This document shows, piece after piece, positions 37,377 to 53,014 of a stretch of DNA of 58,157 nucleotides. The notes below the pieces were generated by a model. It was not told the DNA's origin and ran no database searches. It saw only the letters and a program-made list of their open reading frames with translations. Positions within the stretch are counted from its first letter, which is position 1; every line of letters starts with the position of its first letter. The DNA is from Acidimicrobiia bacterium (GTDB taxonomy: Bacteria; Actinomycetota; Acidimicrobiia; Spongiisociales; UBA11373). The position numbers and the translations under genes were made by a program. The DNA lies in contig JAFGCH010000045.1 of the NCBI GenBank assembly GCA_016932695.1, forward strand, positions 1 to 58,157, given 5' to 3'.

Positions 37377-37613
37377 TCAGGCTGCCGCCCCGGCCGGGGG
37401 CCGGAAAGCCACGATGCCGGCCTGCTCCAGAGCCAGGCCGATCTCCAGCAGAAGATGCTCCCCGCCCCGGCGGCCGATCACCTGCAATGAGGGGGGCGGC
37501 TCGTTGGGGAAGGCCACCGGGGCGGTCAAAGGGAGGGCCAGGGCGGGATGCCCGCCGTGGTTCACCGGGGCGGTGAAGATGGATAGGGCCCGGCGGTAGG
37601 GAAGGGGGCCTTC
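37377..37613 (-). pseudogene. Amidase, 3' fragment (split by the mobile element)
   Basis: The last 78 or so codons of an amidase-signature protein: GPLPYRRALSIFTAPVNHGG, then HPALALPL, SLQVIGRRGGEHLLLEIGLALE and a short tail to the TGA at 37377. This is the C-terminal part missing from the fragment at 50741-51914. It has no start of its own with a ribosome site; a GTG at 37565 is internal. Joining the host flanks at the shared CTTC (37610-37613 with 50741-50744) gives a continuous frame and a protein of about 468 aa, usual for the family. Confidence 0.88.
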
Positions 37614-37636
37614 AGCACCCTTGTCACTATCTTCCC
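37592..37636. other. attL (left attachment site)
   Basis: Host amidase sequence up to CTTC (37610-37613), then the element arm at 37614-37636. Read on the minus strand, the arm is GGGAAGAT-AG-TGACA-A-GGG-T-GCT. It mirrors the arm at 50720-50742. The crossover dinucleotide is predicted to be TC (37612-37613). Confidence 0.8.
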
Positions 37637-37645
37637 GCGCTCCCG
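37628..37645 (+). repeat. 18-nt direct repeat, copy 1
   Basis: TATCTTCCCGCGCTCCCG, identical to 41020-41037. It covers the distal part of the attL arm and nine bases beyond it. Confidence 0.95.
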
Positions 37646-37820
37646 TTCAGGATCAGGGTGGCCGCGTAGCAGCCCCGGGCGGCCAGGCGATCCAGCTCGG
37701 CCTGTATCGCATTCGTCTAGGCCATGGCGATGTCAGTGGCCCTCTTGACCCTGGCGGGCCCTTGCCTCCACTGCCGCAATGGGGAAGAAGAAGCTCCTCC
37801 TTCTTCTCTCCCTCGGACGC

Positions 37821-37852
37821 GTCACGCTCCGGCGTTCCGGCCGGAGCGTGAC
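37821..37852. repeat. 12-bp inverted repeat (hairpin)
   Basis: GTCACGCTCCGG and CCGGAGCGTGAC separated by eight bases. No T-run follows on either strand. It may be a terminator insulating the element end or a protein-binding site. Confidence 0.6.
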
Positions 37853-37962
37853 AATCCCCCTGTCGGGGAAGCCCCCCGGTGGCGTGGTTTGCGCCCCTCC
37901 CGACCTAGGTCATCAATCGGCAGACAGACCACTAGCTTGTTGCTGCTCATCGACAGACTGGG

Positions 37963-37991
37963 TGGACAGCTGAGGGAACTCGGCGTATGTT
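37963..37991 (+). promoter_or_regulatory. Promoter for the 38065 secreted-protein gene
   Basis: TGGACA (37963-37968), a 17-bp spacer and TATGTT (37986-37991). The implied leader is about 65 nt and ends with a GGGAGGTG ribosome site before the ATG at 38065. Confidence 0.5.
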
Positions 37992-38064
37992 GGTGGTGGC
38001 TTCCCAACAGCCAGTGATCGTGCGTCAGTGAAGGATGGTGCTCGCTGACGAAGGGAGGTGCACG

Positions 38065-38799
38065 ATGACACGGGCAAGACGGGTCCGCGTGCTTCTGTCA
38101 GGGGCCCTGGTGATCGCGGCCGCAGTCGTGCTGTTGGCAGCCCCCTCGCCTGCCGACGCAGCTGTTCCGTGCGGCGATGCAGACTGGGCCTGGTACTTCG
38201 ATGGGGTGTACGAACAGCCGGCATCCAGCGCATACGCCGCTAGGGCAACCATACGCGAGAGGAACATAGCCCTGTGCTCGAATGCTTCTGGGGTCACGGC
38301 TGGCGCCTTGGCCTGGACCATGCTTACCGACAGTACGTACTCGGGATACGCGCAGATTGGCTACGCGGAGTACCCGGCCTACACAACGACTCGGCGCTTC
38401 TGGGAATACAACGATGGGGAAGGCTGGTGGAACCGCCTGAGGTTCGCCGACATAGCCGCCGGGACCGACCATGTCTACGAGGTTGTGTACTCCTTCACCT
38501 ACGGGACTGTTGGCATGCTCGTCGATGGCTCGCTCAAACAGACGACGCCGTTCAGCATTGAATTCGGTGAGTGGCCGACGCCCTGGCAAGGCCAGTGGAT
38601 GGGCGAGACCTGGGATCGGGGCGATGACGTCCCAGGAACATCTACCGCCAAAGCCCGGTTCGGATCGGTGGGTGTGGTCGTGCAACGCGCCGGCCCGTAT
38701 GTGAACCCGCGCAACGTCGGCACGGTGCAGTCGCTCACGGTGTACAAGTTCCAGTGGGTCTCGCAGCCGACGGTCTTCAACATCTGGACGCAGAGGTGA
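38065..38799 (+). CDS. Secreted protein of unknown function
   Basis: 244 aa. Signal peptide: basic TRARRVR start, hydrophobic core, and a likely cut after ADA near residue 33. The mature part is rich in Trp, Tyr, Gly and Thr, with RNIALCSNAS, YSGYAQIGYAEYPAY and WEYNDGEGWWN, and only two cysteines. It looks like a beta-rich exported protein; no family was recognised. The ATG at 38065 was chosen over the GTG at 38035 because of its ribosome site. First of four exported-protein genes in a row on the plus strand. Confidence 0.7.
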   Translation: MTRARRVRVLLSGALVIAAAVVLLAAPSPADAAVPCGDADWAWYFDGVYEQPASSAYAARATIRERNIALCSNASGVTAGALAWTMLTDSTYSGYAQIGYAEYPAYTTTRRFWEYNDGEGWWNRLRFADIAAGTDHVYEVVYSFTYGTVGMLVDGSLKQTTPFSIEFGEWPTPWQGQWMGETWDRGDDVPGTSTAKARFGSVGVVVQRAGPYVNPRNVGTVQSLTVYKFQWVSQPTVFNIWTQR

Positions 38800-38804
38800 C
38801 GCCA

Positions 38805-39314
38805 ATGAGTAGGAAAGTCGTTGCTCGCTGTTGGGGGGGCGCCGCAGTAACCGTGTTGGTCGCAGTCGGAGGCCTGCTTCTTGCCTCGGCGGCGCACTCG
38901 GAACCGCCCGTTGAACTCGCCGCCGCTGTGCCCGACGATGTTGTCGCAGGCATGGGCTCCATGGGCTGCCAGCTGTCACCGGCGCCGGCTGACGCCTCTC
39001 TGCTGGCCAAGGTAGGCCCCATCGAGGCGTTGGCCGCAGCCCAGGCGGAGCTCGCATCCAAACCGAAGCCAAACTCAGCGGCGTTCGCCCTGTACTCGGA
39101 CACAGTCACGCGGGCGGTCAACGAGCAGGGCGACCCCTACGGTCCCTTGCTGGGCCCCCAGAAACTCCTGGTGTACGTCTTCGTGTTCGACGGGCTGGAG
39201 CTACCTCCTTCCGGACCCTATGGCAGAACCGGTACGACGATCCTTCACCACGAGATCGTGATGCTGATCGACGCCTCGACGGGCGAGTGGGTGCTCGACG
39301 GAACTTTCCGCTGA
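38805..39314 (+). CDS. Exported protein of unknown function
   Basis: 169 aa. N-terminal signal/anchor (about residues 8-30, with cleavage possible after SAAHS). The mature part ends in YVFVFDGLELPPSG, HHEIVMLIDASTGEWVLDG, a beta-rich C terminus typical of small exported proteins with no known role. It starts six bases after the previous stop, so it is in the same operon. Confidence 0.65.
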   Translation: MSRKVVARCWGGAAVTVLVAVGGLLLASAAHSEPPVELAAAVPDDVVAGMGSMGCQLSPAPADASLLAKVGPIEALAAAQAELASKPKPNSAAFALYSDTVTRAVNEQGDPYGPLLGPQKLLVYVFVFDGLELPPSGPYGRTGTTILHHEIVMLIDASTGEWVLDGTFR

Positions 39315-39449
39315 GGCAGTGCCGCTTGCCCCCGAAGGCGGACCGCCCCCGTCACCGGCCCGACTCGTCAGCATGAGGCGATGCGCGGTGATGGTGCCCC
39401 GTAAGTGCCAGATCGGAACGCCTCCTGTGCGCAGCGAGGCAGCGGGTGG

Positions 39450-39455
39450 TACGAT
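39450..39455 (+). promoter_or_regulatory. Possible -10 box for the 39485 gene
   Basis: TACGAT, 29 bases before the ATG, matches the -10 consensus seen at three other genes. No clear -35 box. The gap from 39315 to this box shows nothing else. Confidence 0.32.
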
Positions 39456-39484
39456 CTGAGGCACTGGCAGAACCAGGGGGCACC

Positions 39485-40012
39485 ATGAAGCGTTGGGGCG
39501 TACTTCTCGTGTCGGTGCTTCTGTTCGGATGTCTAGTTCCCGCCGCGATGGCTGGCGGCACCTACTACCCCTCTGATTGCCACAAGACGGCCGTTGGACC
39601 GTACTGGGGCAATGGGGGAGGGGGTTCGCAGAACTGCTATCTCGGATACGACCGGTACTGGAACTCCGGCACGTACGTCCAGGGCATACAGCGCATTCTC
39701 ATTGGAGAAGGGTGCTTGGGCGAAGCGCCAGATGGCTACTTCGGCCCCGTTACGCGGCTCGCAGTAGCGTGCTATCAGATCAGGTACAACTTGAACGTTG
39801 ACGGGTATGTCGGTTGGTACACATGGGGCTGGTACGGTGGGTTCCAGGGTCGCCTCTACGACGTGACGACGATCGGGGACTACTGGTACTACAAGATTCC
39901 TGGGTACTCGAACTTCCAGTTCAGGATATACGCATGGGGGGATCAGACATGGTCTACGCGAACGCTGAGCGGCGGTAGTTTCACCCTGTTTCAGACCTCA
40001 GGCCCGCGGTGA
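39485..40012 (+). CDS. Secreted peptidoglycan-binding-like protein
   Basis: 175 aa. A signal peptide (KRWGVLLVSVLLFG, cut near AAMA-G at about 23) is followed by a domain resembling PG_binding_1: VQGIQRILIGEG, APDGYFGPVTRLAVACYQ and LNVDGYVGWYTW, where DGxFGPxT and VDGxVGxxTW are family marks. The C-terminal part is rich in Tyr, Trp and Gly. It probably attaches to the cell wall. There are three to four cysteines, which could pair once exported. Confidence 0.75.
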   Translation: MKRWGVLLVSVLLFGCLVPAAMAGGTYYPSDCHKTAVGPYWGNGGGGSQNCYLGYDRYWNSGTYVQGIQRILIGEGCLGEAPDGYFGPVTRLAVACYQIRYNLNVDGYVGWYTWGWYGGFQGRLYDVTTIGDYWYYKIPGYSNFQFRIYAWGDQTWSTRTLSGGSFTLFQTSGPR

Positions 40013-40062
40013 GACGAGCGGGGGCAGACACCAGAGAGGTGGCTAAGGAAGGGTGCTGGAAG

Positions 40063-40776
40063 ATGAACACCTCAGTGGGGCACACTGCAATGCCAGGGTC
40101 CGAGTCTCCAAGGCGCTCCCGTCTGCCGCTGGCAGTCGCCGCTCTCGTAGTAGTGGCAGCGGTGGTGGTCGGTGTGGTCCAAGCAGGAGATGTAGGAGCC
40201 AGGAGAGCCGTCTTTGAGGATGACAGCGTCAGCGACTACCTCGCGAACGAAGACAACCGTCCTGAAGTAGCAGAGGTACAATCGGGTCCTCTCGTCGTCG
40301 AGGCGCGTGCCGCCGGAAGCGCCGCGTTCGCGGCGCTTCTCACTCCCTTTGTGCCTGACGGAGCCGTGCTCTCCCATAACGCCCATTTGACTGCCGGGGA
40401 CGGCTTCGAAGCTGATGAGGCATGGTTCGAGCTTGCTGACGGTGCCGTGCTGTTGATCAGTCGGAGCTATGTCGGTTCGGACTATCACATGCCCTCAGCG
40501 GCGGCACTCATGGGCAGGTCTGGAGGGGTGGAGTACTGGGACAATGGGATTGAAGCAGCCGTGTCCGCCACCCCCTACTTCGCGGAGATCAAAGCCTACG
40601 TTGATGGCTGGCTCCTTACCATTGCGGCCCAGGAAGGACCGGTATGGTTCGGTGAAGGCGAGCCTCCAAGTGGCTTCTTCAAAGAAGGGCGGCGCGGGGT
40701 GGTTCCGGACCTCTCCATTCTACGAGCGCTCGCTCGGAAAATCGTCGACTCCGAGAGCATTCTGTCCGAGGGATGA
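40063..40776 (+). CDS. Membrane-anchored exported protein of unknown function
   Basis: 237 aa from the ATG at 40063. A GTG at 40009 overlapping the preceding stop would add 18 residues. One TM segment (about 22-42) leaves a long C-terminal domain outside, with EVQSGPLVVEARAAGS, DEAWFELADGAVLLISRSYV and a late PVWFGEGEPPSGFF. No family recognised. Last of the four exported-protein genes. Confidence 0.62.
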   Translation: MNTSVGHTAMPGSESPRRSRLPLAVAALVVVAAVVVGVVQAGDVGARRAVFEDDSVSDYLANEDNRPEVAEVQSGPLVVEARAAGSAAFAALLTPFVPDGAVLSHNAHLTAGDGFEADEAWFELADGAVLLISRSYVGSDYHMPSAAALMGRSGGVEYWDNGIEAAVSATPYFAEIKAYVDGWLLTIAAQEGPVWFGEGEPPSGFFKEGRRGVVPDLSILRALARKIVDSESILSEG

Positions 40777-41174
40777 ATCCTGGGGCGGGCCAGAGTGCGT
40801 GAGGGCGCCTGGCGGAGGCACCGTTGGAGTCCAGCGGGAAACTCCCGAGCATCGACAGGTCCCTGACTAGCCTCGCTCGACCGGCTCCTCGGTCCCGGGT
40901 CTGATTGGCATGGGGCTGGCCATGACTAGGCCCTACCGGCCCGTGTGGGGCCACCGCCAGGAATAGTGACGCTAGGAGGCGCCCTGGTCGGCGTGACGTG
41001 CCCTCAGTACCCACGCGCATATCTTCCCGCGCTCCCGGAGCGGCTGGGCGACTCGGCTCCTCTGACATGGGTGGCCTGACGTTCGCTTCTTCGCGCGACC
41101 CGCGGCCCGGTGTCCGTGTCGCTACTCTCGGGCGACAGGAGGCTTGTGTCAGCCTCAGACCAAGGGGGAAGAGC
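40777..41174. other. Non-coding 398 bp with a second attachment-like half-site
   Basis: No convincing gene. The stretch 41004-41037 repeats the left arm of the element (see the entry there). A possible TACTCT box lies shortly before the small gene at 41175. Confidence 0.5.
41004..41037 (+). repeat. Second attL-like half-site
   Basis: TC (41004-41005) is followed by an arm (41006-41028) matching 16 of 23 positions of the attL arm at the same spacing. The match then continues exactly through GCGCTCCCG to 41037. The last 18 nt (41020-41037) are identical to 37628-37645. Confidence 0.7.
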
Positions 41175-41393
41175 ATGGCGACGCCGGTCTACTCTCGTCC
41201 GGTTGGGAAGCGGTACCTCGGCAATACCAACGAAATGGAGGTTCACGACCTCTCGAACGAGAGGTCGGCGTGTCAGGTCGGCGAGATCATCGCAGCCAGA
41301 CACGCGGTCACCTTCTCGCCCGACACTCTGCAGCAGGCAAGGGCTGAGCGCTACGACAACTGCGCCCACTGCATCGGCGGCTCGACCCGCTAA
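41175..41393 (+). CDS. Small conserved cysteine-containing protein
   Basis: 72 aa. YLGNTNEMEVHDLSNERSAC, then QVGEIIAARHAVTF, PDTLQQARAERYDNCAHCIGG. I recognise this as a small conserved actinobacterial/bacterial type: the lone Cys plus NCAxCIGG and nearby His residues suggest metal or cluster binding. The function is unknown. The ATG at 41175 follows GGGGGAAGAG. It stands alone between the secreted-protein genes and the ImmA/IrrE pair. Confidence 0.72.
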   Translation: MATPVYSRPVGKRYLGNTNEMEVHDLSNERSACQVGEIIAARHAVTFSPDTLQQARAERYDNCAHCIGGSTR

Positions 41394-41619
41394 CAGCCCC
41401 ATTACTGACCCCACGCGCCTGCAGGTCGGCCGCCAGCCGAGTGCCTCGTAGGCAGTAGTCCCGACGGGGGTGCTTCACCTCTGCCGCAATGGTTTCGCGG
41501 GCCCGCTCTGCTCTTCGCTCTTCGGGTCGTTGCATGACCTGGAGCCAAGTGGCAACATGCCTGGTGGAGCCCGCTGGGTCACCAGAGCATCGGCCTTCCG
41601 CTCCCAACACCCCTTCTGC

Positions 41620-41649
41620 TTGTTTCTTTACCTCGTTTGAGGCTACAAT
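41620..41649 (+). promoter_or_regulatory. Promoter for the 41677-42321 gene pair
   Basis: TTGTTT (41620-41625), an 18-bp spacer and TACAAT (41644-41649) in a locally AT-rich stretch, giving a leader of about 20 nt to the ATG at 41677. The gap from 41394 to 41619 shows no gene. Confidence 0.45.
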
Positions 41650-41676
41650 AGGCGCAGTCAACGGTTGGAGCACGCG

Positions 41677-42315
41677 ATGGAGATTGCGACAGCACCATGG
41701 GTCTCGGGAGAGAGCGCAGGCGTCCAGCTCGCGGAGTTGGGGCTCACTGAAGAGCTTCTGCAGGCTGCTTTGCAGCGTGGGGAGATTGACCGTGCCACCT
41801 GCACGGCGAACGACCCTTCGTACCTTCCGGGGATGCTCGCGCAGGGGAGGTCGGTGCGTGCCCTCCGTGAGGCACTCCTGCCGGCAGGGTGGAGTCGTGA
41901 CGACGTGCGGGGGTTGCCCCTGGTGGTGAGCCCGAACGGGGATCTGGCCTTGACTGTGGCTACTGGTGATGAAGGAACGGGAGATCCGCACCGTCCCGCG
42001 AGCTCCAAGCACCCGAAGGGGGCGGCTACCGCCATGCTTGTTGCCACCAACCAACTGCTCCTGGACCTTCCAGGTGTTGAGGGGGCTAGGCGGCCTGACT
42101 TCACCACCTGGGTGCTGCTTTTCCGGCGGGCCCCTGGCCAGATTGTCGCCGAGTTGTCGCTACCGCGCACGATTACGAGAGAAGGGAAGATCGTGGAGTG
42201 GGAGCAGAGAATCATGCTGACGGCCATCCCGCTGGACGGTGACATGGCTACGGTCCGGCCTGTTGAGCCCGAGCCCGATGCGGGCGTGGTAGTGCGGCCC
42301 AGGGACCGGGGCTGA
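41677..42315 (+). CDS. Partner protein of the XRE-ImmA/IrrE regulator, function unknown
   Basis: 212 aa, soluble, no signal peptide. Notable segments are DPSYLPGMLAQGRSVRALRE, LVATNQLLLDLPGVEGARRP, TTWVLLFRRAPGQIVAELSL and WEQRIMLTAIPLDG. No family recognised. It ends five bases before the HTH-metallopeptidase gene, the arrangement of two-gene modules in which an ImmA/IrrE protease acts on or with a co-encoded partner. A TTG at 41665 is an alternative start. Confidence 0.6.
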   Translation: MEIATAPWVSGESAGVQLAELGLTEELLQAALQRGEIDRATCTANDPSYLPGMLAQGRSVRALREALLPAGWSRDDVRGLPLVVSPNGDLALTVATGDEGTGDPHRPASSKHPKGAATAMLVATNQLLLDLPGVEGARRPDFTTWVLLFRRAPGQIVAELSLPRTITREGKIVEWEQRIMLTAIPLDGDMATVRPVEPEPDAGVVVRPRDRG

Positions 42316-42320
42316 GTGAG

Positions 42321-43415
42321 ATGTTCGAGCCGACTAGGTTGGTTCTGGCGCGCGCCCGACGCGGGCTCACCAAACGACAGCTGAGCGAACGTAGCGGGCT
42401 TTCGATTCGAACGCTCACAGCACTGGAGCAGGGCCCTGACCCTGCGCCGACTGACCGCACGGTGGAGGCCCTCAGCTCGTCGCTCGGTTTCCCCAGGGAG
42501 TTCTTCTCTGGTGAGGAAATGGAAGCGCTGCCCGCGGAGGCAGCGACCTTCAGAGCGCTCACGCGGCTGTCGGCTCGCGAGAGGGACGCGGCTCTGGCGG
42601 CGGGGCGACTCGCGTTGGCCCTGAGTGAGTGGATCGAGAGCCGCTTTGAACTGCCGCAAGTTGACATCCCACAGCTGGCCAGTGAAGCGCCGGAGGCAGC
42701 GGCCGAGGCGGTGCGCGCCCGATGGGGTATGGGGCTGGGCCCGATACCCAACCTGGTCCATCTGCTCGAAGCCCACGGAGTCAGGGTGTTCTCACTGGCG
42801 ACCGACTGCAGCGAGGTCGACGCCTTCTCTCTTTGGAGGGACGGGAAGCCTTTCGTGTTCCTGAACACGAACAAGTCCGGGGAAAGAAGCAGGATGGACG
42901 CAGCCCACGAACTGGGCCACCTCGTGCTCCACCCTGAGTACGACCGGAGCGTGTCACGTCAGTTGGAGAGGGATGCAGCCCTGTTCGCCTCCGCCTTCCT
43001 GATGCCGCAGGCAAGCCTCATCGGCAGGCACGGCATGTACCCCACATTGGACGAGCTGGTTCACGGGAAGCGGGAGTGGTCGGTGTCGCTAGCCGCCTAC
43101 GTGCAGCGCCTCTACACGGCCGGGCTCATCACCGAGTGGCACCACCGCTCGCTGTTCATCGAGCTCTCCAAACGCGGATACCGATCGGGCGAGCCAGACG
43201 GCATCGAGCGTGAGCGGTCTCAGATTCTGGAGCAGGTCTTCGGCTACCTCCGGCGTGAAGGGGTGACTCGCAGCGACGTGGCCCGGGCCCTCGCCCTCTC
43301 GAAACAGGACCTCGACGCCCTCGTATTCGGCCTGGTGTTCTCGTCGGTCGACGGCGCCGCGGAGCGCCCGGGCCGTGCGCAGCGGGGTCACATCCGGGTT
43401 GTCGGCGCCCAGTAG
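42321..43415 (+). CDS. XRE-family HTH regulator fused to ImmA/IrrE metallopeptidase
   Basis: 364 aa. The N-terminal XRE helix-turn-helix (about 1-60) has LVLARARRGLTKRQLSERSG and LSIRTLTALEQG. The middle ImmA/IrrE (DUF955) domain has the zinc motif HELGH in DAAHELGHLVLHPE (about 195-208) and the later ERDAALFASAFLMP. The C-terminal part (about 250-364) is helical. Such proteins control mobile elements by cleaving a repressor or partner after stress. It is the likely regulator of this island. Confidence 0.88.
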   Translation: MFEPTRLVLARARRGLTKRQLSERSGLSIRTLTALEQGPDPAPTDRTVEALSSSLGFPREFFSGEEMEALPAEAATFRALTRLSARERDAALAAGRLALALSEWIESRFELPQVDIPQLASEAPEAAAEAVRARWGMGLGPIPNLVHLLEAHGVRVFSLATDCSEVDAFSLWRDGKPFVFLNTNKSGERSRMDAAHELGHLVLHPEYDRSVSRQLERDAALFASAFLMPQASLIGRHGMYPTLDELVHGKREWSVSLAAYVQRLYTAGLITEWHHRSLFIELSKRGYRSGEPDGIERERSQILEQVFGYLRREGVTRSDVARALALSKQDLDALVFGLVFSSVDGAAERPGRAQRGHIRVVGAQ

Positions 43416-43555
43416 TAGGAGGCGAAAGTCGAGCGATGCAGGGAGTCGCCCCCCTTGGGGTTGGGCCCGTGTCTCGGGCTGGACTCCTCGCTTTCACAGC
43501 CACCCGCCCAGCATGGGGTGATAGCCTTGTTGCCAGGCGTGTTTCTGGCCGCGTA

Positions 43556-44365
43556 TCAAGTCGAGTTGCCGGGTTTGGGTGGGGGTGGCCATTCCCAGAC
43601 CCGTCGCGTGGGGTCGTGGGGGTAGATGCCGTGTTGGAGGCGGTGGGGACCAGCGCTGTCGGGTGCTCGCATGAAGGGTCCGGCGAGGAGCGCCTCGTAG
43701 ACGATCAGGCTGCCCGGGCGGTCTTCGAGGTGGCGGCGGAGGAGTCCGAGCCGGTGGTCGGTGAGGCTCACATAGATGCCGGGCGGGTCCTTGGCGAGCT
43801 CGCGGTCGAGCTGGTCGTAGGGGCCGTCGATGCGGGCGAAGGCTGCCTGGTCTACGGATGGGTAATCAGATGGGGGTTCGGATGGCTCCTCCGGCCCAGT
43901 GACGGGAAGGGTGTTGTCCTTGTCCTTGGCGAGGCGGCGGGTGTCGAAGAGATGGATCCGCCGGCAGTAGGAACAGAGCAGCCAGAACCCCGGGCGGCCT
44001 TCGTGGGCAACCAGGCGCAGGTCCACAACGAGCCACCGGTCGGGCCGCCATCCGGACGGCTTGGACGGCGGCCGGGCCACCTGGACGACCGCGAGCTTGC
44101 GGTCGTGAACGTCGAGCAGCTTGGAGGGCCGGACCCGGGGCCGGGGAGCCCTTCCCGCGGCTACGGGGCAGTCCCAGCGGACCCGCCGGCGTGGCTCGAA
44201 CAGCGTCTGGTACAGCTCGATACCCGGCCGGCGGAGCTGGTCGGCCTGTTCGGGGGTGGCGTCGGTGGGGGTGTGGCGAATGCCGGGGGTGAGCCAGGCG
44301 GCGTCGTGGAGGGAGAGCAGTGCCGAGATCATGCCCTCCCGCCAGAGCGGGTCGGCTGGGGTCAT
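43556..44365 (-). CDS. Hypothetical protein with CxxC and a Pro-rich linker
   Basis: 269 aa, not recognised. Features: WLVVDLRLVAHEG, a CSYC pair (about residue 131), a Pro/Glu/Ser linker (about 155-172, PSEPPSDYPS), and a second part IDGPYDQLDRELAKDPPGIY with LGLLRRHLEDRPGSLIVYEA. The opposite strand holds a longer open frame, but its composition is poor. The ATG at 44365 has a TAGGCT -10 box six bases upstream. Its linker DNA recurs at 45027. Confidence 0.6.
   Translation of the reverse strand: MTPADPLWREGMISALLSLHDAAWLTPGIRHTPTDATPEQADQLRRPGIELYQTLFEPRRRVRWDCPVAAGRAPRPRVRPSKLLDVHDRKLAVVQVARPPSKPSGWRPDRWLVVDLRLVAHEGRPGFWLLCSYCRRIHLFDTRRLAKDKDNTLPVTGPEEPSEPPSDYPSVDQAAFARIDGPYDQLDRELAKDPPGIYVSLTDHRLGLLRRHLEDRPGSLIVYEALLAGPFMRAPDSAGPHRLQHGIYPHDPTRRVWEWPPPPKPGNST
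43856..43894 (-). repeat. Dispersed repeat, copy 1 (inside the 43556 gene)
   Basis: Begins with the 20-mer GGATGGGTAATCAGATGGGG (plus strand), exactly repeated at 45027-45046. Similarity continues to about 43894. It encodes the EEPSEPPSDYPS part of the linker. Confidence 0.85.
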
Positions 44366-44371
44366 GCGGTC

Positions 44372-44377
44372 AGCCTA
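44372..44377 (-). promoter_or_regulatory. Putative -10 box for the 43556-44365 gene (leaderless)
   Basis: TAGGCT on the minus strand, exactly six bases before the ATG at 44365. The rest of the gap up to 44485 shows no other feature. Confidence 0.45.
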
Positions 44378-44485
44378 CGTTCCGGGGGTGACAGGTGTCT
44401 CGCCGTCGGGTCGTTGACCGGGCATGGGTGGGGTCCTAGATTGGTGGGCAGTCCGGTAGTGGCTTCCCCGCCAGCCCGGTCGCAA

Positions 44486-44566
44486 GAGAAGTGGGGTAAC
44501 GAGCGGTAGCCGCCTGCCCTTCGCGGGAAGGGAGGGCGGCTTGTGCCGTCTCTAACCCCACTTCTC
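44486..44566. repeat. Nested inverted repeat over a gene start
   Basis: Outer arms GAGAAGTGGGGT (44486-44497) and ACCCCACTTCTC (44555-44566) are perfect complements. Inside, 44508-44541 forms a second hairpin: a 7-bp stem AGCCGCC/GGCGGCT, a two-base mismatch, then CCCTTC-GCGG-GAAGGG. The GTG at 44543 lies between the two structures, so its ribosome-binding region would be buried in RNA. Confidence 0.8.
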
Positions 44567-44788
44567 AAGTCCCGACGCCGTTGCCGGGCGTCTCTCATCC
44601 TTGATGACCTCGGTGTCTCTCAGGCCAAGCTGACGGATGCTCTTGGGGTCTCTACCACCTCACTCTCGCGGATGCTGCGGGGCGGACAGCCGCTCCCGGC
44701 CGGGTTCGAGTTCGCGCTCCGGGCTTCGATCGGTGCGGACGGCACCGACAGGATGCTGGCCGCCATCGAGGCGGAGGCGGACCAATGA
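44543..44788 (+). CDS. Small helix-turn-helix-like protein
   Basis: 81 aa. LGVSQAKLTDALGVSTTSLSRML reads as an XRE-like helix-turn-helix, followed by RGGQPLPAGFEFAL and an acidic helix. Possibly a transcription regulator of the element. The GTG start lies in the nested inverted repeat, with no visible ribosome site outside it. The stop overlaps the next ATG (ATGA). Confidence 0.6.
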   Translation: MPSLTPLLKSRRRCRASLILDDLGVSQAKLTDALGVSTTSLSRMLRGGQPLPAGFEFALRASIGADGTDRMLAAIEAEADQ

Positions 44789-45036
44789 GGGTCGTCGTCT
44801 GCCTCCAAGAACGCGTCGACCCGGCCGCCGCCCGCGCCCTGGCCAGGCTTCTGTTCGCGAGCGAATCCCCACCGGACCCGATCCTGAACTCCGCTGCAGA
44901 GCGCCGAGCACCGGGCCGGGCGGGTGGCGAACTAGCCGGGCCACGCATCAGCCATACGCAGAGCAGGAAGCGGCGAGCCGGGGGCCGTCGGCCCGCTGAG
45001 CGCCCCCCACAGCCCGGAGAGGCGTCGGATGGGTAA
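44785..45036 (+). CDS. Small protein of unknown function
   Basis: 83 aa: RVVVCLQERVDPAAARALAR and then an Arg/Pro/Gly-rich tail without structure. ATGA overlap with the HTH gene supports co-translation, which is the main reason to accept it. Its last codons fall in the dispersed repeat at 45027, which supplies the TAA stop, so the C terminus may be a truncation product. Confidence 0.45.
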   Translation: MRVVVCLQERVDPAAARALARLLFASESPPDPILNSAAERRAPGRAGGELAGPRISHTQSRKRRAGGRRPAERPPQPGEASDG

Positions 45037-45066
45037 TCAGATGGGGTGTTGGATGGCCCCCTCCGG
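45027..45066 (-). repeat. Dispersed repeat, copy 2
   Basis: Exact 20-mer shared with 43856-43875, then about 20 more bases with scattered differences. The reading frame matching copy 1 gives GPSNTPSDYPS but continues into no recognisable gene. Confidence 0.85.
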
Positions 45067-45392
45067 GCACCGCCCGCCCACAGACAGCCCGCGCCATTGG
45101 CCCCTTCCGGCTCGACTTGATAGACCTCGGAAACTCCGGACCCTTACGGACGCCCGAGACCCCCTGGAGTATCTCCAGGAGTGCTTCTAACGGGTGTGTC
45201 GGGACTGTTGCGAGCCGCGGCGGCGGGGCAGCCGCCGCCGCAACCCAGCTGACGTGCTGACCTGGGGATACGCGGCGCACAGCGACGAGCCAGGAGGGGA
45301 CGTTCCCCCTGATCAGCGGCTTAGCCCCTAAGCACCCACGCCTTCATCGCGTGCAGTTGGTATCCACGCCCTGGTCGACCCCAAGCAGTCCC
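45037..45392. other. Non-coding 356 bp
   Basis: Holds the end of the dispersed repeat, a GC-only hairpin at 45207-45244 (8-bp GCGGCGGC/GCCGCCGC stem with outer TTGCG/CGCAA pairs) and a small GCTTAG/CTAAGC hairpin near 45317. No gene is seen. Confidence 0.5.
45207..45244. terminator. Strong GC hairpin between convergent genes
   Basis: GCGGCGGC pairs with GCCGCCGC around a six-base loop, extended by GTTGCG/CGCAAC with a small bulge. It sits between the plus-strand small genes and the minus-strand lipoprotein gene, where a bidirectional terminator would be expected. No T-run. Confidence 0.4.
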
Positions 45393-46070
45393 TCAGGGTG
45401 TTGTCGTCTCCAGTCTGTCGGCCCACTCTCTCGCCGAAACATCCCGCGACGGATCGAAGGGCGGGAGGATTGACGCCGTTCCCTGATTCGTCAGCACTAG
45501 CGCGTAGGGTGAGCTGCCGAGTTGCACTAAGGCCTCTTCCAGGGCGCTCCCCGATGCGGACTCGACCCGCAAATCGATGACCCATGCCACCGGTATCCCT
45601 GGCACAACGCGCCCGTTCTCAGCGAAGATGCCCTCTATTGTGTGTTCCGCTGAGTCAAGCGTTTCATCCCACGAGTCCTTGAGGCCCAAGACCGCCACCG
45701 TGACCCGATCCTCGCCCAGCACGTAGAAATGGATCGCCGTAGGGATCAAGCCTGCCGGGGCAAGCGTCTGTTCGATGAGGTCGAAGAGCTCATGGCCGTC
45801 GAAGCCGGGACTGGGCGCCACAAGCGCAGCCGTACGGCCGGTCAGCACCTCCTCAACCGAAATCGTCCCCGATTCACACCGCATCTGAGCGAAGTCCACG
45901 GCGAACGCCTCGGCGCCGCCCAGAAGAAGAAACTCGGCCGGTTGAACCTGCGGGCAGGTGGCAACGTCAGGTGGCAGCCCGCAGGCCCCCAGCCAGATAC
46001 TCAGCGCGACGGTGATTGCGCTGGACGGCCAGCACCCCCATCGCCTCACCCTTGCGAGACGCGGTTGCAT
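45393..46070 (-). CDS. Lipoprotein sharing a module with its neighbour
   Basis: 225 aa. N-terminal basic region, hydrophobic core and the lipobox LGAC (about residue 30) predict a membrane lipoprotein. The rest resembles residues about 50-240 of the protein encoded just upstream: SVEEVL versus SADEIL, LGEDRVTV versus LPGEHRTT, and ILPPFDPSRD versus LLPPLDPARD, near the end. The module is unknown. The ATG at 46070 overlaps the upstream gene by 25 bases. Confidence 0.68.
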   Translation of the reverse strand: MQPRLARVRRWGCWPSSAITVALSIWLGACGLPPDVATCPQVQPAEFLLLGGAEAFAVDFAQMRCESGTISVEEVLTGRTAALVAPSPGFDGHELFDLIEQTLAPAGLIPTAIHFYVLGEDRVTVAVLGLKDSWDETLDSAEHTIEGIFAENGRVVPGIPVAWVIDLRVESASGSALEEALVQLGSSPYALVLTNQGTASILPPFDPSRDVSAREWADRLETTTP

Positions 46071-48013
46071 GTTGCGTTGTCCGTTGGAGTGATGAAGCCT
46101 GTTTGGTAATCGACCCAACCGTAGAGCGCCATGGCATCAATGCGGAGCTGATCCGCTGCATCGGTGTTGAACAGCTTGGCGCGAATCGAACTGTGCTGAT
46201 AGTCCGCGGAGTTTGTAGCACCGTGGAGAGAATCAAAGCGACACAGGTAGTACCACCCGTCGTTTGGGATCGTGAAGGTTGGACTGGGTCTTGTCTCGAC
46301 GGGATACACCCCATCTCGACCTTCCCAAGCGAGCTTGCCGTTGCACGGATTGCCAGTCAAGCACTGTACGACGTACTCCACCGAGAAGTCATCCCCGGGT
46401 TCGATCGTGCGCGTGACGGTGCGGTAGGCATACCCAGTGCTGTAGCCGACCTGTGGTCGTATGGTGACGCGTCCAGGGGGTTCGGGACCGTTGGTACCGG
46501 TGTAGCACCAGTAGTCGACATGTCCCGCGGCAAACCCCCACTCTCCAGGGCAGGGTGAGAAGGTGTTATCGGTTATGTAGGAGCCGCCGTAGTAGAGGAA
46601 GTAGCTCTGGGGGGTGAGCAACTCCCGCGTCTTGTTGTACCGGTGGCCGTAGTTCTCGAACGAGCACCATGCCGGATCGGGCAGGGACCCGTTGTGGATG
46701 GGGCAATCGGTGGTGATTGCTCCGGCAACTGACCGCAGCTGCACGTGGGTCTGCGTGACAGACGTTGGCTCTATTCCGATGTCAATGTGGTATTCGGTGT
46801 TAGCAGCGATGGCCGAGGCGTTCCCGGTGACGGCTGCGTAGTTGTGCCACATGTACTGGGCATCGTCAATGATCAGGTCCGTTGTGCAGACAGAGGGGAG
46901 GTCGCAGTTGAAGTACGTGGGGTTTGTCGCGTACCCGTGGCCCCATTCGTCCTCGGTGAAGAACTCCCACTCGTACGAGGCATACACGCATTCGCCGCCA
47001 GCGCACCACCCGGCATCATGCCCACTGACTCGAAAGGCCGAGCCGAAGTAGATGTCGGATTCCAGCACATTGACGTCCTCCTGGCTCCGATAAAAGAAGT
47101 CGGGATCTGCCCACAGGGGAGTCCAGGTCATCACGCCGTACCGGTCGATGTGTCTCTCGTATGCGTACTCGCTGAGAAGCGAGTCGCCCGACCACGTCGT
47201 TGCAGCGACCGACTGGCCGCTAGCACGCAGGCGATCAGAGACCCGTCCCGCGGCGAGATTGGCGTCCCGAGCCGGGTCGAGGGGTGGAAGTAGGGAAACG
47301 TCCATCAGGCTGCGAGCAGAGCCAAGCGCGAGACCGCGCCGTCTCAGCACGTCGATAGCTAGCGAAGCGGAGCCCGGCTCGAACGCAACGCCGATTCCGT
47401 AGACCAGATAGGACCCGCTCTCCAGTTGGCCGAGCATGCCTCTCGCATCAGACACGTAGGCAGCGCTGTTAGCCAGCGTCTCAGCGGCATCGCCGGGTTC
47501 AAGGACGCTGAGAACGGCTGCCTGCTGCTGTTGGTTCAGCGACGCGACAGAAGCCTCGATGTTCTCTAGCAGGGCGTCCCGCTCAAAGGTCTTCCACTGG
47601 CCCAGCGCCTGCTCGAACGTCTCGTCGTCTCGAACTACGAACCAGGACGTCGTCGTGCGGTGTTCGCCAGGAAGGGCGATCAGTGCTTCGCGGATGCGTG
47701 CACCCTCGGGCAACTCAGCCCGAAGCTGTCGAACGGCGTCTTCCCGGAAACCTCCACGAATCATCGCGACGAGTATCTCGTCAGCGGAGACTGATGCGGC
47801 GGTCAACCTGCTTCCCTGCTCAAGCAGTTGCTCGAATTGCGCGGAGTGTGCCTGTTCCGCAGGCAAGTCAAGAGCGATGTCAAGCACATCTGCCATGTCA
47901 GACTCGCTCGTCCCGGTCTGCGAACTGGAAGCGGGACCGGGGATCACCAACTGAAGAATCAAGAGGGATCCGAGCAGCGAGCCAAACACCAGCCTCTTCC
48001 AGGGAAACCGCAT
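46046..48013 (-). CDS. Large secreted protein of unknown function
   Basis: 655 aa. Signal peptide (KRLVFGSLLGSLLILQLVI, cut near PASSS). The N-terminal module (about 50-240) is paralogous to the downstream lipoprotein. The C-terminal two thirds (about 260-655) are rich in Tyr, Trp, Gly and cysteines (WCAGGECVYASYEWEF, YFNCDLPSVC, CPGEWGFAAGHVDYWC), suggesting disulfide-bonded beta structure outside the cell. No enzyme motif seen. GGGGGAG precedes the ATG at 48013. Confidence 0.68.
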   Translation of the reverse strand: MRFPWKRLVFGSLLGSLLILQLVIPGPASSSQTGTSESDMADVLDIALDLPAEQAHSAQFEQLLEQGSRLTAASVSADEILVAMIRGGFREDAVRQLRAELPEGARIREALIALPGEHRTTTSWFVVRDDETFEQALGQWKTFERDALLENIEASVASLNQQQQAAVLSVLEPGDAAETLANSAAYVSDARGMLGQLESGSYLVYGIGVAFEPGSASLAIDVLRRRGLALGSARSLMDVSLLPPLDPARDANLAAGRVSDRLRASGQSVAATTWSGDSLLSEYAYERHIDRYGVMTWTPLWADPDFFYRSQEDVNVLESDIYFGSAFRVSGHDAGWCAGGECVYASYEWEFFTEDEWGHGYATNPTYFNCDLPSVCTTDLIIDDAQYMWHNYAAVTGNASAIAANTEYHIDIGIEPTSVTQTHVQLRSVAGAITTDCPIHNGSLPDPAWCSFENYGHRYNKTRELLTPQSYFLYYGGSYITDNTFSPCPGEWGFAAGHVDYWCYTGTNGPEPPGRVTIRPQVGYSTGYAYRTVTRTIEPGDDFSVEYVVQCLTGNPCNGKLAWEGRDGVYPVETRPSPTFTIPNDGWYYLCRFDSLHGATNSADYQHSSIRAKLFNTDAADQLRIDAMALYGWVDYQTGFITPTDNATCNRVSQG

Positions 48014-48384
48014 GACACTCCCCCAATCCTGCCGCCAATGCGACACGAAGAAAGCCAGTTCGAGTCGCCGTCCCTCCGGGTTGTAGCCCGGAAACCCGGG
48101 GGCAGATCACACCCCCCAAGATGTGTGGGGCAATTGGTCCGCCAGAACTAGGGGCCAAAGGCCCCAAACCCGGCTTCGGTCTTTCCGAGCGTAGGGTTCT
48201 TGCCGGCCTCCCTTGACGACCGTTCGCATCTGGCATCCCTGGCAGTTCGGTCGGCGGCACCCCAGGAGCCCTCATGGCCTCTGGCGGGTGTGAGGCGCTT
48301 GCCGGCTTGTCCGGATTCGATGCCAGAGCTGCCGCCCAGGCTGCTGCTCACCAGACACGTACACTCTTAGCCAGGCTGGGGCGT
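48014..48384. other. Divergent intergenic region, 371 bp
   Basis: Lies between the two divergent exported-protein genes. It holds small hairpins, for example GGGGCC-AAA-GGCCCC at 48151-48165, and a possible TACACT box at 48360-48365 for the plus-strand gene. Open frames here are weak and were not called. Confidence 0.45.
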
Positions 48385-48792
48385 ATGCGCTGTTCGACGG
48401 TATCCTCGGCCGGGGTGGCCAAAGATCCGAATCGGGTTGCCTGGATCGGTCCGACACTGGTGGCACTGGTGCTCCTGTCGACGGCAGTGGCGGCCATCAC
48501 GGTGACGCTCGGACGCGCGCCCTCCGAATCCTTTCCAACTGATCACGGGGTGACGGACTCCTGCGAGGAGTGGGTAAGGTGCGCTGCCGAGACGATCGAA
48601 GCCCACCCGGGGACGTTTGCCGCGCAGAACGGATTCGAGATTGAAACGGCCGGACCCCGCTGGATCGTCGTGAGAAGCGGCTTGCTCACGACTCGTCTTG
48701 AAATGGCTGATGGCCACCTCGCATACTGGCGTTTCGGGGGCTGGCATTCGGTCCCCTGGGACTGTCCCGGAGTTCGCCCTGAGAATCACTGA
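48385..48792 (+). CDS. Membrane-anchored small exported protein
   Basis: 135 aa from the ATG at 48385. One TM helix (about 20-42, WIGPTLVALVLLSTAVAAI) with an outside domain containing SCEEWVRCAAETIEAHPG, RWIVVRSGLLTTRLEMADGH and YWRFGGWHSVPWDCPG. Three cysteines lie outside. No family recognised. The frame opens at 48274; the later start gives a clean N-in topology. Confidence 0.55.
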   Translation: MRCSTVSSAGVAKDPNRVAWIGPTLVALVLLSTAVAAITVTLGRAPSESFPTDHGVTDSCEEWVRCAAETIEAHPGTFAAQNGFEIETAGPRWIVVRSGLLTTRLEMADGHLAYWRFGGWHSVPWDCPGVRPENH

Positions 48793-48989
48793 GCCGCCCC
48801 GGCGCTGCATCCCCGAGACAGGCACCTCGCTGACCAGCCGGCAGAGATCGCCTCTTCGACCGGTACCACGCCTGCTGCTCACTGCAAGCGCAGATGGGCA
48901 GACGCGGATGCTATGAACTCCCTGACGTGGGCCGGCCGCCGGCCCCCCCGATACCCCATGCGATCGGGTCTTGTGTCAGTGGCGGGGGG

Positions 48990-48995
48990 TATTGT
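48990..48995 (+). promoter_or_regulatory. -10 box of the recombinase operon (leaderless)
   Basis: TATTGT is followed by six bases and the ATG at 49002. It would drive the 83-aa gene and the recombinase together. Confidence 0.5.
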
Positions 48996-49001
48996 GCGTG
49001 T

Positions 49002-49253
49002 ATGAGGACTCTTCTGGTCTTCGATGTGGAGTTGGATGAGGGCAAGCGCCCGTCGACCCGGTTCCGCCGGTTGGATCGCCTGGTGCGGCTCGCGGGCAGC
49101 TTTGTGGGCCGGCTGAACGGGGTTCGGGCGGTGCACAGCGTGTCGCTTTGTGACCCGGCGCAGGCTGAGTTGCTGCGGCCTGAGGTCCGCTATGACGGCC
49201 GTCAGGTGGCACCGACACTCGACCAGCTCGGGTACGAGCGCACGGTCCGATGA
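49002..49253 (+). CDS. Small protein coupled to the recombinase
   Basis: 83 aa. RTLLVFDVELDEGKRPSTRF, then VGRLNGVRAVHSVSLCDPAQ and a short C-terminal part. Not recognised. Its stop overlaps the recombinase ATG (ATGA), so it is made in step with the recombinase and could be a directionality or control factor. It has few hydrophobic segments and is probably cytoplasmic. Confidence 0.65.
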   Translation: MRTLLVFDVELDEGKRPSTRFRRLDRLVRLAGSFVGRLNGVRAVHSVSLCDPAQAELLRPEVRYDGRQVAPTLDQLGYERTVR

Positions 49254-50752
49254 GGCGGGCGGCGCTGTATCGGCGGGTGTCGACACCCGGCCAGGTGGAC
49301 GGGTTCTCCCTCGCCGACCAACTGGAGCGGCTTTCTCGGCTGGCGGAGGCTGAGGGGTTCGGCTGGGAGGATTTCTGCGACCCGGGCCACTCGGGGGAGA
49401 AGCTGGAGGAACGGCCTGCCCTGATGGGCCTGCTGGGCCGCCTGGATGAGTTTGAGGCGGTGCTGGTGGTGGATGAGTCCCGGCTGGCCCGCAGCGAAGC
49501 GGTCGCTTTTCTGATCCGTCAGCGGCTGCGGGAGGCGGGGGTGCGGTTGGTCACCCCGCAGGGGGAGACCGACCTGTCTGATCCGGATGAGAGTCTGATG
49601 TCGGCGGTGCGCACCTTGTTTGGTGTGGCGGAGCAGACCCGCCGCACCCAGCGGATGACCCAGGGGTTGGACCGGGCCGCCCAGGAGGGCTTGTGGACCG
49701 GGGGTCCGGCCCCGGTCGGCTACCGGCTGGTCAAGACCCCCGCCGGCCACACCACCTTGGAGGTAGACCCAGAAGGGGCGGCGTTCGTTCGGATGGTGGT
49801 TGGGATGGTAGTAGACGAGGGCCTGTCGGTGTATGAGACAGCGAAGCGGATCAACGCTCTCGGCTACCGCACCCGAAAGGGGACTCCCTGGGAGCACCGG
49901 AACCTCGGGCATCATCTCCGACGCCGTCACCTGCTGGGGGAGATCCCCTACAACTCGGCCGGCGGCCCGGTTGTTCGCCAGTTCCCCCCGCTAATCCCCG
50001 AGGCCCGCTTCGCCGATTTACAGGCAGCCCTCCGGAGAAATGCCCGACCCGCCCCGGACAAACGGCACCTCTACCCGTTTTCGGGCAGGGTGGCCTGCGA
50101 ATGTGGGGGCCGCCTGGTCGGAACCTGGCGAAACGACCGGGCAGTCCGCTGCTACGTGTGCAACCGGCACGTGAACGCGGCGATCACCGGTCGGCGCTGT
50201 ACCGCCCGGCCGCACTGGCACCGGGCCGACCGGCTCGAAACGCTGCTGTGGGAGCCGATCCGGGCCACCCTCGCCGACCCGGACCGTCTCCAAGCCGCCG
50301 CCCTCGCCCACACCGGGCAGGAGGGCCCTGACCCGGCCGAGCTCGACGCCCGCATCGCCGACCGGCGCCGCCGTCTCGACCTTGTCACCGACGAGCGGGT
50401 CCGTACCTTCCGGGACGCCCGCCACCTGGGGCTCACCAACCCTGAGATCCGCCGCATCCTCAGCCAGCTCTCCGAGGAACACGACACCCTCACCAGAGAG
50501 CTCCGCACCCTCGAGCAGCAGGCCCGGCTCGCCGCCAGCCGCACCGACCCGATTGCCCAGGCACACCGGCTAGTTCAGGCGGCTGCCGTCGCCCTCGGCC
50601 ACCCCACCCTCGGAGACCAGGCCGCCCTCATCGCCCTCCTCGACATCCAAGCCACACCGGTCGAAGGCGGATACGAGGTCACAGGGTCGATCCCACTCAC
50701 CACAGAGGACGGGACCCCTGGGAAGATGCTGACAGGGGAGCTTCCTCGGTGA
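49250..50752 (+). CDS. Large serine recombinase (integrase)
   Basis: 500 aa. N-terminal resolvase domain with the catalytic Ser at about residue 11 (YRRVSTPGQ) and the conserved VDESRLARS; recombinase domain (about 165-270, GPAPVGYRLV and LNALGYRT-like INALGYRTRKG); zinc ribbon CECGG...CYVC (about 285-310); coiled coil (about 370-440). It catalyses site-specific integration and excision between attP and attB. The last codons lie past the crossover: integrated, it ends ELPR. In the excised circle the frame would instead run 18 residues past EL, to 37669. Confidence 0.93.
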   Translation: MRRAALYRRVSTPGQVDGFSLADQLERLSRLAEAEGFGWEDFCDPGHSGEKLEERPALMGLLGRLDEFEAVLVVDESRLARSEAVAFLIRQRLREAGVRLVTPQGETDLSDPDESLMSAVRTLFGVAEQTRRTQRMTQGLDRAAQEGLWTGGPAPVGYRLVKTPAGHTTLEVDPEGAAFVRMVVGMVVDEGLSVYETAKRINALGYRTRKGTPWEHRNLGHHLRRRHLLGEIPYNSAGGPVVRQFPPLIPEARFADLQAALRRNARPAPDKRHLYPFSGRVACECGGRLVGTWRNDRAVRCYVCNRHVNAAITGRRCTARPHWHRADRLETLLWEPIRATLADPDRLQAAALAHTGQEGPDPAELDARIADRRRRLDLVTDERVRTFRDARHLGLTNPEIRRILSQLSEEHDTLTRELRTLEQQARLAASRTDPIAQAHRLVQAAAVALGHPTLGDQAALIALLDIQATPVEGGYEVTGSIPLTTEDGTPGKMLTGELPR

Positions 50753-50764
50753 CCACCTCGTCGC
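50720..50764. other. attR (right attachment site)
   Basis: Element arm at 50720-50742 (GGGAAGAT-GC-TGACA-G-GGG-A-GCT), crossover TC at 50743-50744 inside CTTC, then host amidase sequence. The arm matches the inverted attL arm at 19 of 23 positions. Confidence 0.8.
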
Positions 50765-51914
50765 GGCCGATCTCCTTGCGGGTCGCGGCGGTGGTGGGCA
50801 GGAGGACGGCGTCGTGGCCGGAGAGCAGGTCGTCGAGTGCCCGGCGCACCCGGCCCCGCCAGGCCAGGCCGGCGGCGTGCTCCGCCGGGCCCATGGCGAG
50901 GGCCCGCTCCAGGCGCGGGCGGACGTCGGGCCCGTAGCGTTCCGGATGGCTCTGCATCCAGGCCCGATGCACCGCCGCGGCCTCCGGGTAGGTGGATTCC
51001 TCCAGCAGGCCGGGAGGTGCCAGGTCCGGGGAGTGGGGCTGGTGCACGTCGGCCCCGGCCTGCTCCAGGGCGGTGAGGGCGAAGCGAAAGCCGTCCCGGA
51101 CTTCACGGGACACCGGGTGGGCGGCCCAGGGCAGCGGGACGGCAAAGCGGCAGGCGGCTAGATCGGCAGGTTCCCGCGGCGCGACCACGACCTCGGGGAG
51201 CGACCAGCGGTCGGCGGGGTCGGGGCCGGCGAGGGCCAGGTATGCCAGGGCGGCGTCGCCCACCGTGCGGGTCAGCGGGCCGACGGTGTCCAGCGACGCG
51301 GCCAGCGGGAAGACCCCGGTGAGGGGGATGCGGCCGTGGGTCACCTTGAGTCCCACCAGGCCGCAGAGGGCCGCCGGGACCCGCACCGAGCCCCCGGTGT
51401 CCGTTCCGATGCCCACCGCGGCCAGGCCGGCGGCTACCGCCGCCGCCGAGCCGCCGGAAGAACCGCCGGCCGACGTGCTCGGATCCCAGGGGTTCCGTAC
51501 CGGCCCCCACCACAGGTTCTCGCTCGAGAAGCCGAAGGCGAACTCATGCAGGCCGGCCCGGCCGACGATGACCGCCCCGGCCGTTTGCAGGCGCCGCACC
51601 ACCGTGGCCGAGGCCGACGACACCCGGCGATAGAAGGAGGAACCACAGGCGGTGGGAAGGCCCTCTTGGTCGATGAGATCCTTGAGCGCTACCGGTACGC
51701 CGCACAGCAAGCCGGGGGGCTCGCCGGCGGCGAGGCGGCGGTCGAGGTCGGCGGCCGCGGCGAGGGCGCCGTCGGCATCGACCAGGGTGAAGGCGTTGAG
51801 ATCACCGCGATGAGCGATGGCCTCGAGGGATGCCCCGACCACTTCGGAAGCGCTTATGTCCCTGGCCGCTACCGCCGCAGCGATCTCGGCGGCGGTAGCG
51901 GCGAAGCGCCTCAC
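50741..51914 (-). pseudogene. Amidase, 5' fragment (split by the mobile element)
   Basis: About 391 host-encoded codons of an amidase-signature enzyme; past the junction the frame runs into element DNA to a stop at 50697. The Ser-Ser-Lys triad is complete: Lys in GVPVALKDLIDQEG, cis-Ser in TSAGGSSGGSAAA and nucleophile Ser in GTDTGGSVRVPAA. The C-terminal 78 residues are at 37377-37613. Activity of the truncated protein is doubtful because the missing part closes the core sheet. GTG at 51914 overlaps the stop of the DUF3048 gene. Confidence 0.88.
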
Positions 51915-53014
51915 GACCAGGTGAGGGACCGCTGCTCGGGGAACACCGAAATCCAGGGGATCCCGGGGGGCACCACCGTCGGGTTGCCGTCGCCGTCGAA
52001 GAGGCGGAAGGGCTCGGTCACCGCGTCCCTCTCCCAGGTGCCCTCCATCACCTTGCCGCCGGCGAAGACCAGCAGCGTGCCGGAGCCGACGGTTTCGATC
52101 GCCGGCACGGCGGAGCGACCGTCCGGGGGCGGCTGGGCGATGTAGTACCGACCCTCGATGACCACGAGGACATCGAAGGCCAGCGGCCCCCGTTGATCCT
52201 CGCCGTCCACCCAGGAGTGGCCCACTCCGTTCTCGGCTCTCTTGTAGCGGCCCCGGTCGTACTCCCAGGTGACTACGTGCCCGGCGGCCCAGTCCAGCGT
52301 GATCTGCGCGGCCTCCTCTGCCGGTTCGTCCCACTCCCCGATGGCGTACAGCGGGCCGTTGATGTCGTTGTCGAAACCCCGGTCGTCGGCGGTGAGGCGA
52401 GCGTCCCAGGTGTCGGCATAGAGGTTGTGCGGAGCCCGGCGATGGGGCATGCGGAACAGGCCCGGGGAGCCCTCGCCGATCAGGGGGATGCCCCGGGAAT
52501 TGGCCAGAGCCTGGATCCAAGTCTGGCCCCCGGAGATGAGGAAGACCGGGTCGAGCGGGGCGAGCATGGCCGAGTCGGTGGGCCGCACCGAGCGTACCGG
52601 GCCCACATAGCCGGAGTCGCTCTGGTGGAAGAGGGCGATGAACCGGGTGATCCCGCCCTCGACGATGATCTCGATGACGGCGTCGGCCTCCTGCAGCCCA
52701 GACTGGGGCCGGGCCATGGGATGGTTGTCCACCTTGACGGCCACTACGCGGCGGTTGAGCAGCGCGTCGTCTTCGACCAGGAGCCCGTTGAGCGGCGCGG
52801 GCGAGCCGGGAGGCAGGGTGGTGGGGGGAAGCGTGGTGGTGGTTGTGGTGGTAGTCGTTGTTGTCGTGGGGGGACCCGTAGTGGTGGTAGTAGCCGTGGT
52901 GGTCGTCGTGGACGGCGCCGTAGCAGTGGTAGTGGTCTCGGCCTGCCCCGAGCCCCCGCAGGCAGGAAGGGAGAGGGCGAGGGCGGCGAGCAGGGCGACG
53001 GGAGCACGTCTCAT
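51911..53014 (-). CDS. DUF3048 lipoprotein with Thr-rich linker
   Basis: 367 aa. The N terminus has a lipobox-like LPAC (residues 16-19), then a Thr/Pro linker (about 25-70) encoded by GTG/GGT-rich DNA. The globular part matches DUF3048 (YerB-like): VVAVKVDNHPMARPQSGLQE, ADAVIEIIVEGGITRFIALF, VGPVRSVRPTD and a C-terminal EGTWERDAVTEPFRLFD. It is probably a cell-surface lipoprotein; the function is not established. It shares four bases with the amidase start. Confidence 0.85.
   Translation of the reverse strand: MRRAPVALLAALALSLPACGGSGQAETTTTATAPSTTTTTATTTTTGPPTTTTTTTTTTTTLPPTTLPPGSPAPLNGLLVEDDALLNRRVVAVKVDNHPMARPQSGLQEADAVIEIIVEGGITRFIALFHQSDSGYVGPVRSVRPTDSAMLAPLDPVFLISGGQTWIQALANSRGIPLIGEGSPGLFRMPHRRAPHNLYADTWDARLTADDRGFDNDINGPLYAIGEWDEPAEEAAQITLDWAAGHVVTWEYDRGRYKRAENGVGHSWVDGEDQRGPLAFDVLVVIEGRYYIAQPPPDGRSAVPAIETVGSGTLLVFAGGKVMEGTWERDAVTEPFRLFDGDGNPTVVPPGIPWISVFPEQRSLTWS

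Follow-up and report, generated by a model that had tools for sequence, protein, structure and literature searches.

Gene-Splitting Integration in Described Systems

Insertions of large serine recombinase elements that disrupt genes, resolved by comparison with uninserted genomes, are well documented (PMC10083194, 2022). Chromosomal genes that are split by an element and restored by its excision, including the one occupied by the Listeria prophage in comK, have been reviewed (PMC8987985). As outlined in PMC8092301 for the work of Broussard et al. (2013), mycobacteriophages with attP located inside the repressor gene use the change of its 3' end, which depends on integration, as a switch. The RosmerTA systems, in turn, are phage defence systems with ImmA-domain antitoxins (PMC10440598).

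The locus described here lies in a 58,157-nucleotide stretch of DNA (hereafter the window), which is contig C27 of a metagenome-assembled genome (MAG) of 2.44 Mb, 161 contigs and 95.5% completeness. Like the insertions of PMC10083194, it has attL and attR boundaries, reconstructed attP and attB sites, a dinucleotide core, a broken target gene and a recombinase beside the attachment site; it differs from them in its host, an uncultured Acidimicrobiia-type MAG, and in its target, a DUF3048-linked amidase. As with the Listeria prophage in comK, a chromosomal gene is split in frame and precise excision would restore it, whereas here no virion genes are recognised, no excised junction is present in the MAG and the element was found in one genome only. 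The mycobacteriophage switches, as far as that outline describes them, share with the window an attP lying in frame, a 3' end altered by a stop at the junction and a longer free form, here ending in RVAA; there, however, the switch combines a repressor gene with a tyrosine integrase, while here it is the serine recombinase gene itself that is affected. Finally, like Gordonia phage Kita, the mobile element carries an ImmA/M78-type RmrA beside the variable toxin RmrT; the pair in the window is known through sequence matches.

In our reading, which we hold with a probability of about 0.93, a mobile element used its own large serine recombinase to integrate and thereby split a chromosomal amidase gene. 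An initial annotation had proposed such an element in a formerly intact amidase gene, and the proposal is borne out by an uninserted relative, an in-frame fusion of the gene halves, a reconstructed attP and conserved half-sites. The mechanism is ordinary large serine recombinase integration, a familiar kind of event that is cleanly resolved in this case.

The Split Amidase and Its Restored Frame

The amidase gene is encoded on the minus strand, and an element of 13,131 bp (37614-50744) interrupts it following codon 391. The 5' part of the gene, codons 1-390, occupies 50745-51914, and its 3' part, the last 77 codons and the stop, occupies 37377-37609; with the core included, the N-terminal half covers 50742-51914 and the C-terminal half 37377-37613. 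The catalytic residues K78, cis-S153 and S176 are all located in the N-terminal half, so the minus-strand 5' fragment does bear the complete triad ascribed to it. The sequence CTTC is present at both the left (37610-37613) and the right (50741-50744) junction, and joining the halves at this common motif gives an unbroken frame of 468 aa with no stop, as the annotation had anticipated.

The fused protein matches the Pfam Amidase profile (PF01425) over positions 1-445 of 445 (309.9 bits). This end-to-end alignment had been suggested as a check on the fusion, and it identifies 37377-37613 as the missing C-terminal part. The N-terminal half alone matches positions 1-387 (288.5 bits) and lacks the last 58 profile positions; the 3' part alone has no match to the Pfam Amidase profile and is recognised from its translation and its C-terminal similarity to the nearest relative. 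The full-length fold of the fused protein, together with the Ser-cisSer-Lys triad, places it in the amidase signature family.

The 5' fragment is interrupted at the element, as claimed, but it does not end at the junction: in the integrated state its frame continues for 14 codons into element DNA, resulting in a product of 405 aa. This truncated amidase, without the last 77 residues of the fold, is very likely inactive. No second close copy of the amidase was found in its own genome, in which the next-best match is 45% identical.

The Empty Locus and Its Neighbourhood

The nearest genome compared, G001 (VGBK01000114.1), is an Actinomycetota MAG of the same genus and carries the empty locus, in which a one-piece amidase lies in the arrangement DUF3048-amidase-AOR-KorA, with the same order and strand as in the window. 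The two amidases are 75% identical in the 5' part and 80.5% identical in the 3' part, and a single codon separates the two aligned stretches. The adjacency of both fragments in an uninserted relative, which had been named as a further check, is thus found as a single gene. In the window, the aldehyde ferredoxin oxidoreductase (AOR) gene (35471-37309, minus strand; Pfam AFOR_N and AFOR_C) lies downstream of the amidase, 67 bp from its stop; AOR is about 91-92% identical in G001 and adjacent to the amidase there too. A 75-aa ThiS/MoaD-like protein is encoded between AOR and KorA (35234-35461, minus strand) and fits cofactor supply for AOR. Directly upstream of the amidase is the gene for a DUF3048 protein (51911-53074, minus strand; Pfam), which has the same place in relatives.

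The amidase locus was surveyed in 65 Acidimicrobiia-type loci, 57 of which were long enough for gene-order counts; the relatives other than G001 are mostly named Acidimicrobiia. The amidase is in one piece, reaching at least residue 440, in 61 of the 65 loci; of the other four, L088, L128 and L131 hit a contig end and L126 is a divergent match. In L128 (at about 7209) and L131 (at about 5252), the contig ends inside the amidase at approximately codon 408-409 of the fused window numbering. KorA is encoded within 3 kb downstream of the amidase in 55 of the 57 loci, and DUF3048 upstream in 51. With this conserved DUF3048-amidase-KorA order, the separation of the DUF3048 and penicillin acylase genes from AOR-KorAB can be attributed to the insertion, as had been claimed. 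The downstream position of AOR-KorAB likewise stands, with one correction. Among the surveyed loci, AOR lies between amidase and KorA in this genus only, and elsewhere the next gene downstream of the amidase is usually KorA; AOR is therefore an addition of this genus, and the conserved unit is DUF3048-amidase-KorA-KorB. The order of this unit is strongly conserved in Acidimicrobiia (L041, L052-L054, L071-L135), hinting that the amidase and the 2-oxoacid:ferredoxin oxidoreductase may be functionally linked in a way not recognised so far.

The amidase of another relative, the family mate G011, is divided over contigs C272 (L050, end 3127) and C237 (L049, end 55592), each ending some 15 bp away from the position that corresponds to the insertion. 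We considered whether G011 has a second insertion here but do not count it as evidence, since neither contig enters an element and the amidase pieces abut, so that a plain assembly break is possible. The contig ends could reflect such a break or be a sign of variable insertion in that population.

Attachment Sites

The putative crossover dinucleotide within the core is TC, at 37612-37613 on the left and 50743-50744 on the right. The limits of the element (plus strand, one core copy included) are supported by the in-frame fusion, the empty site of G001 and the palindromic attP. Joining the element ends, as in a circularised form, gives CCTGGGAAGATGCTGACAGGGGAGCTTCAGCACCCTTGTCACTATCTTCCCGCG. The reconstructed attP is a 54-bp imperfect inverted repeat with 20 of 26 arm positions symmetric about TC; symmetry as good was absent from all 300,000 pairs of positions drawn at random from the window, and from all 20,000 pairs scored at their best axis. 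An inverted repeat centred on TC is as would be expected for the attP of a large serine recombinase.

The half-site P on the recombinase side (50717-50742, plus strand) is a 26-bp arm with 20 matches to P' and agrees with a P arm of the relative G010 at 17 of 22 positions; P' at the far element end (37614-37639, plus strand) agrees with the G010 arm at 18 of 22. On the host side, half-site B (37590-37611, plus strand) is the left host flank in the amidase 3' part and agrees at 15 of 22 positions with the half-site beyond the core at the G010 recombinase, a score equalled by 8.6e-5 of window 22-mers. The similarity to both the P arms and the host half-site of G010 gives independent support for which sides belong to the element and which to the host. 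In the amidase 5' part, half-site B' (50745-50766, plus strand) was assigned from position only; it has no significant similarity to the other half-sites, which we count against the integration reading. An exact attP was not found in IMG/VR, nor was an attB or attP junction, representing the empty site or the excised form, found in the MAG itself.

The Recombinase and Its Host-Encoded Stop

The large serine recombinase (49250-50752, plus strand) has 500 aa with the catalytic residue S11, and its best PDB match is the TP901-1 integrase. It combines a resolvase domain with the serine (Pfam Resolvase, PF00239), a Recombinase domain (PF07508), a zinc ribbon (Zn_ribbon_recom, PF13408) and a C-terminal extension, and it is accompanied by short att sites with a central dinucleotide and inverted-repeat attP arms, all of which are characteristic of the family. 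The closest recombinases found are 62-73% identical and come from a single other genus in the taxonomic family of the host, that of G010 being 62% identical. Single-sequence patterns found no close relatives of it in named genomes or in IMG/VR, and phage and plasmid records contained relatives at about 30% identity only. A small ORF of 83 aa (49002-49253, plus strand) shares 4 nt with the beginning of the recombinase gene and has conserved counterparts just ahead of the recombinase genes of G010 and G002; as a guess, its product is a candidate accessory or directionality factor.

Judged from its domains and sites, the enzyme is predicted to catalyse recombination between attP and attB. The attP of the circular element, with the TC crossover within the 54-bp inverted repeat, would meet attB around amidase codon 391, and their recombination would produce two hybrid junctions and divide the amidase. 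It is presumably this recombinase that made the insertion, and it may also be able to excise the element.

The crossover point falls within the recombinase frame, and therefore the stop codon of the gene sits in host DNA: the integrated form ends with ...LTGELPR at a host TGA. The circular form would extend the recombinase by 16 residues to 516 aa, ending with ...RIRVAA. In G010 and G005, the recombinase frame likewise ends just past the core, in apparent host half-site sequence. We regard it as unlikely that the gene acts as an integration-dependent switch, in which a 516-aa enzyme of the free circle and a 500-aa integrated form with a host stop would provide a pulse of enzyme in the circle or set directionality, so that the amidase could be restored in certain conditions only. 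The ...RIRVAA end is possibly an ssrA-like degradation tag. Two terminal alanines are, by our own estimate, not rare in a GC-rich genome.

Toxin-Antitoxin Pair and Other Cargo

The element carries genes for an RmrT-like toxin (41665-42315, plus strand; PADLOC RmrT, E = 9.3e-54) and an RmrA-like antitoxin (42321-43415, plus strand; PADLOC RmrA, E = 1.5e-144), the latter with HTH and Peptidase_M78/ImmA domains in Pfam. The RmrT and RmrA genes are 5 bp apart and the antitoxin has the M78 domain, which together define a RosmerTA-type pair; pairs related to both genes are present on IMG/VR contigs. The pair probably stabilises the element and/or defends against phages, and the functions given here for the pair and the remaining cargo are putative.

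The secreted or membrane character of cargo proteins was judged by eye from their N-termini. On the plus strand are encoded a signal-peptide-like protein known as an ORF with no family matches (38035-38799), a secreted-type protein with a peptidoglycan-binding domain (39446-40012; PG_binding_1, E = 1.1e-9), a membrane-type protein that is weakly anti-sigma-factor-like (40009-40776; NCBIfam, E = 2.6e-5, below the cut-off) and a small XRE-type HTH protein (44543-44788; Pfam HTH_31, weak and below the cut-off). The minus strand encodes a protein without an assigned function (43556-44365), a 32% identical relative of which lies just upstream of the G005 recombinase, and a lipoprotein-like protein of 241 aa (45393-46118). 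Chromosomal relatives of the latter with about 36% identity occur in G010 (L066, 10564-11379 of G010:C9; L069, 9776-10483 of G010:C17), one of them roughly 1.5 kb downstream from KorB, in the vicinity of the conserved gene cluster described above. A chromosomal protein of G011 shares about 58-62% identity with the C-terminal half of a secreted-type protein of 666 aa (46046-48046, minus strand). In that genome, two adjacent chromosomal genes match the N- and C-terminal parts of the 666-aa protein (L068, 10822-13034 of G011:C97), suggesting a possible fusion or split.

A PHROGs scan of ten element proteins detected no virion structural or packaging genes, the matches being an integrase, a regulator and an endolysin-like peptidoglycan-binding protein only. 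Among the proteins scanned, none had a Pfam or NCBIfam match to a relaxase, a coupling protein or type IV secretion and conjugation genes.

Age of the Insertion and Alternative Explanations

The mean identity of the amidase to other relatives is 0.531 for the window and 0.520 for G001, and each has 5 unique departures at 174 conserved columns. The dN/dS against G001 is 0.28 in the N-terminal and 0.12 in the C-terminal part. The halves are thus undecayed, and from this comparison the insertion is probably recent. Restoration of the gene often enough for selection would also leave undecayed halves; a recent insertion is the simpler explanation.

Such restoration would be part of a regulated gene interruption, with the element kept in the lineage and conditional excision restoring the amidase in the style of the comK prophage. 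The undecayed, in-frame halves are compatible with it, as are a recombinase and attachment sites that look intact; a recent insertion, however, accounts equally well for the missing decay. Moreover, the element was found in this genome only and is missing from the same-genus genome G001, which gives no hint of a long shared history, and the MAG yielded no junction of the excised form. Taken together, these observations make a regulated interruption quite improbable.

The fragmentation of the MAG raises the question of an assembly chimera, in which two unrelated metagenome pieces were joined in one contig. The chance of this is very small, because a palindromic attP arises from the two ends of the insert, which lie far apart, because the flanks on the host side match a single gene and because the half-sites recur in other genomes. 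A naturally split amidase, with two domains encoded apart, would need a start for the C-terminal fragment, and an internal GTG there could serve; it is nevertheless contradicted by the one-piece gene of G001, by the survey, where three of the four exceptions run into a contig end, and by the site-specific ends of the element, which leave it a negligible probability.

Implications for Acidimicrobiia

The locus provides a resolved att pair and the accompanying recombinase from an actinobacterial class that is poorly known and for the most part uncultured, and it may be a possible tool for genome engineering. The host-encoded stop of the recombinase, apparently also found in G010 and G005, is a noteworthy feature for large recombinase catalogues. 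An element carrying a RosmerTA-type pair breaks the conserved DUF3048-amidase-KorAB arrangement, which raises the question of whether expression of the downstream korAB genes persists and what role the amidase has.
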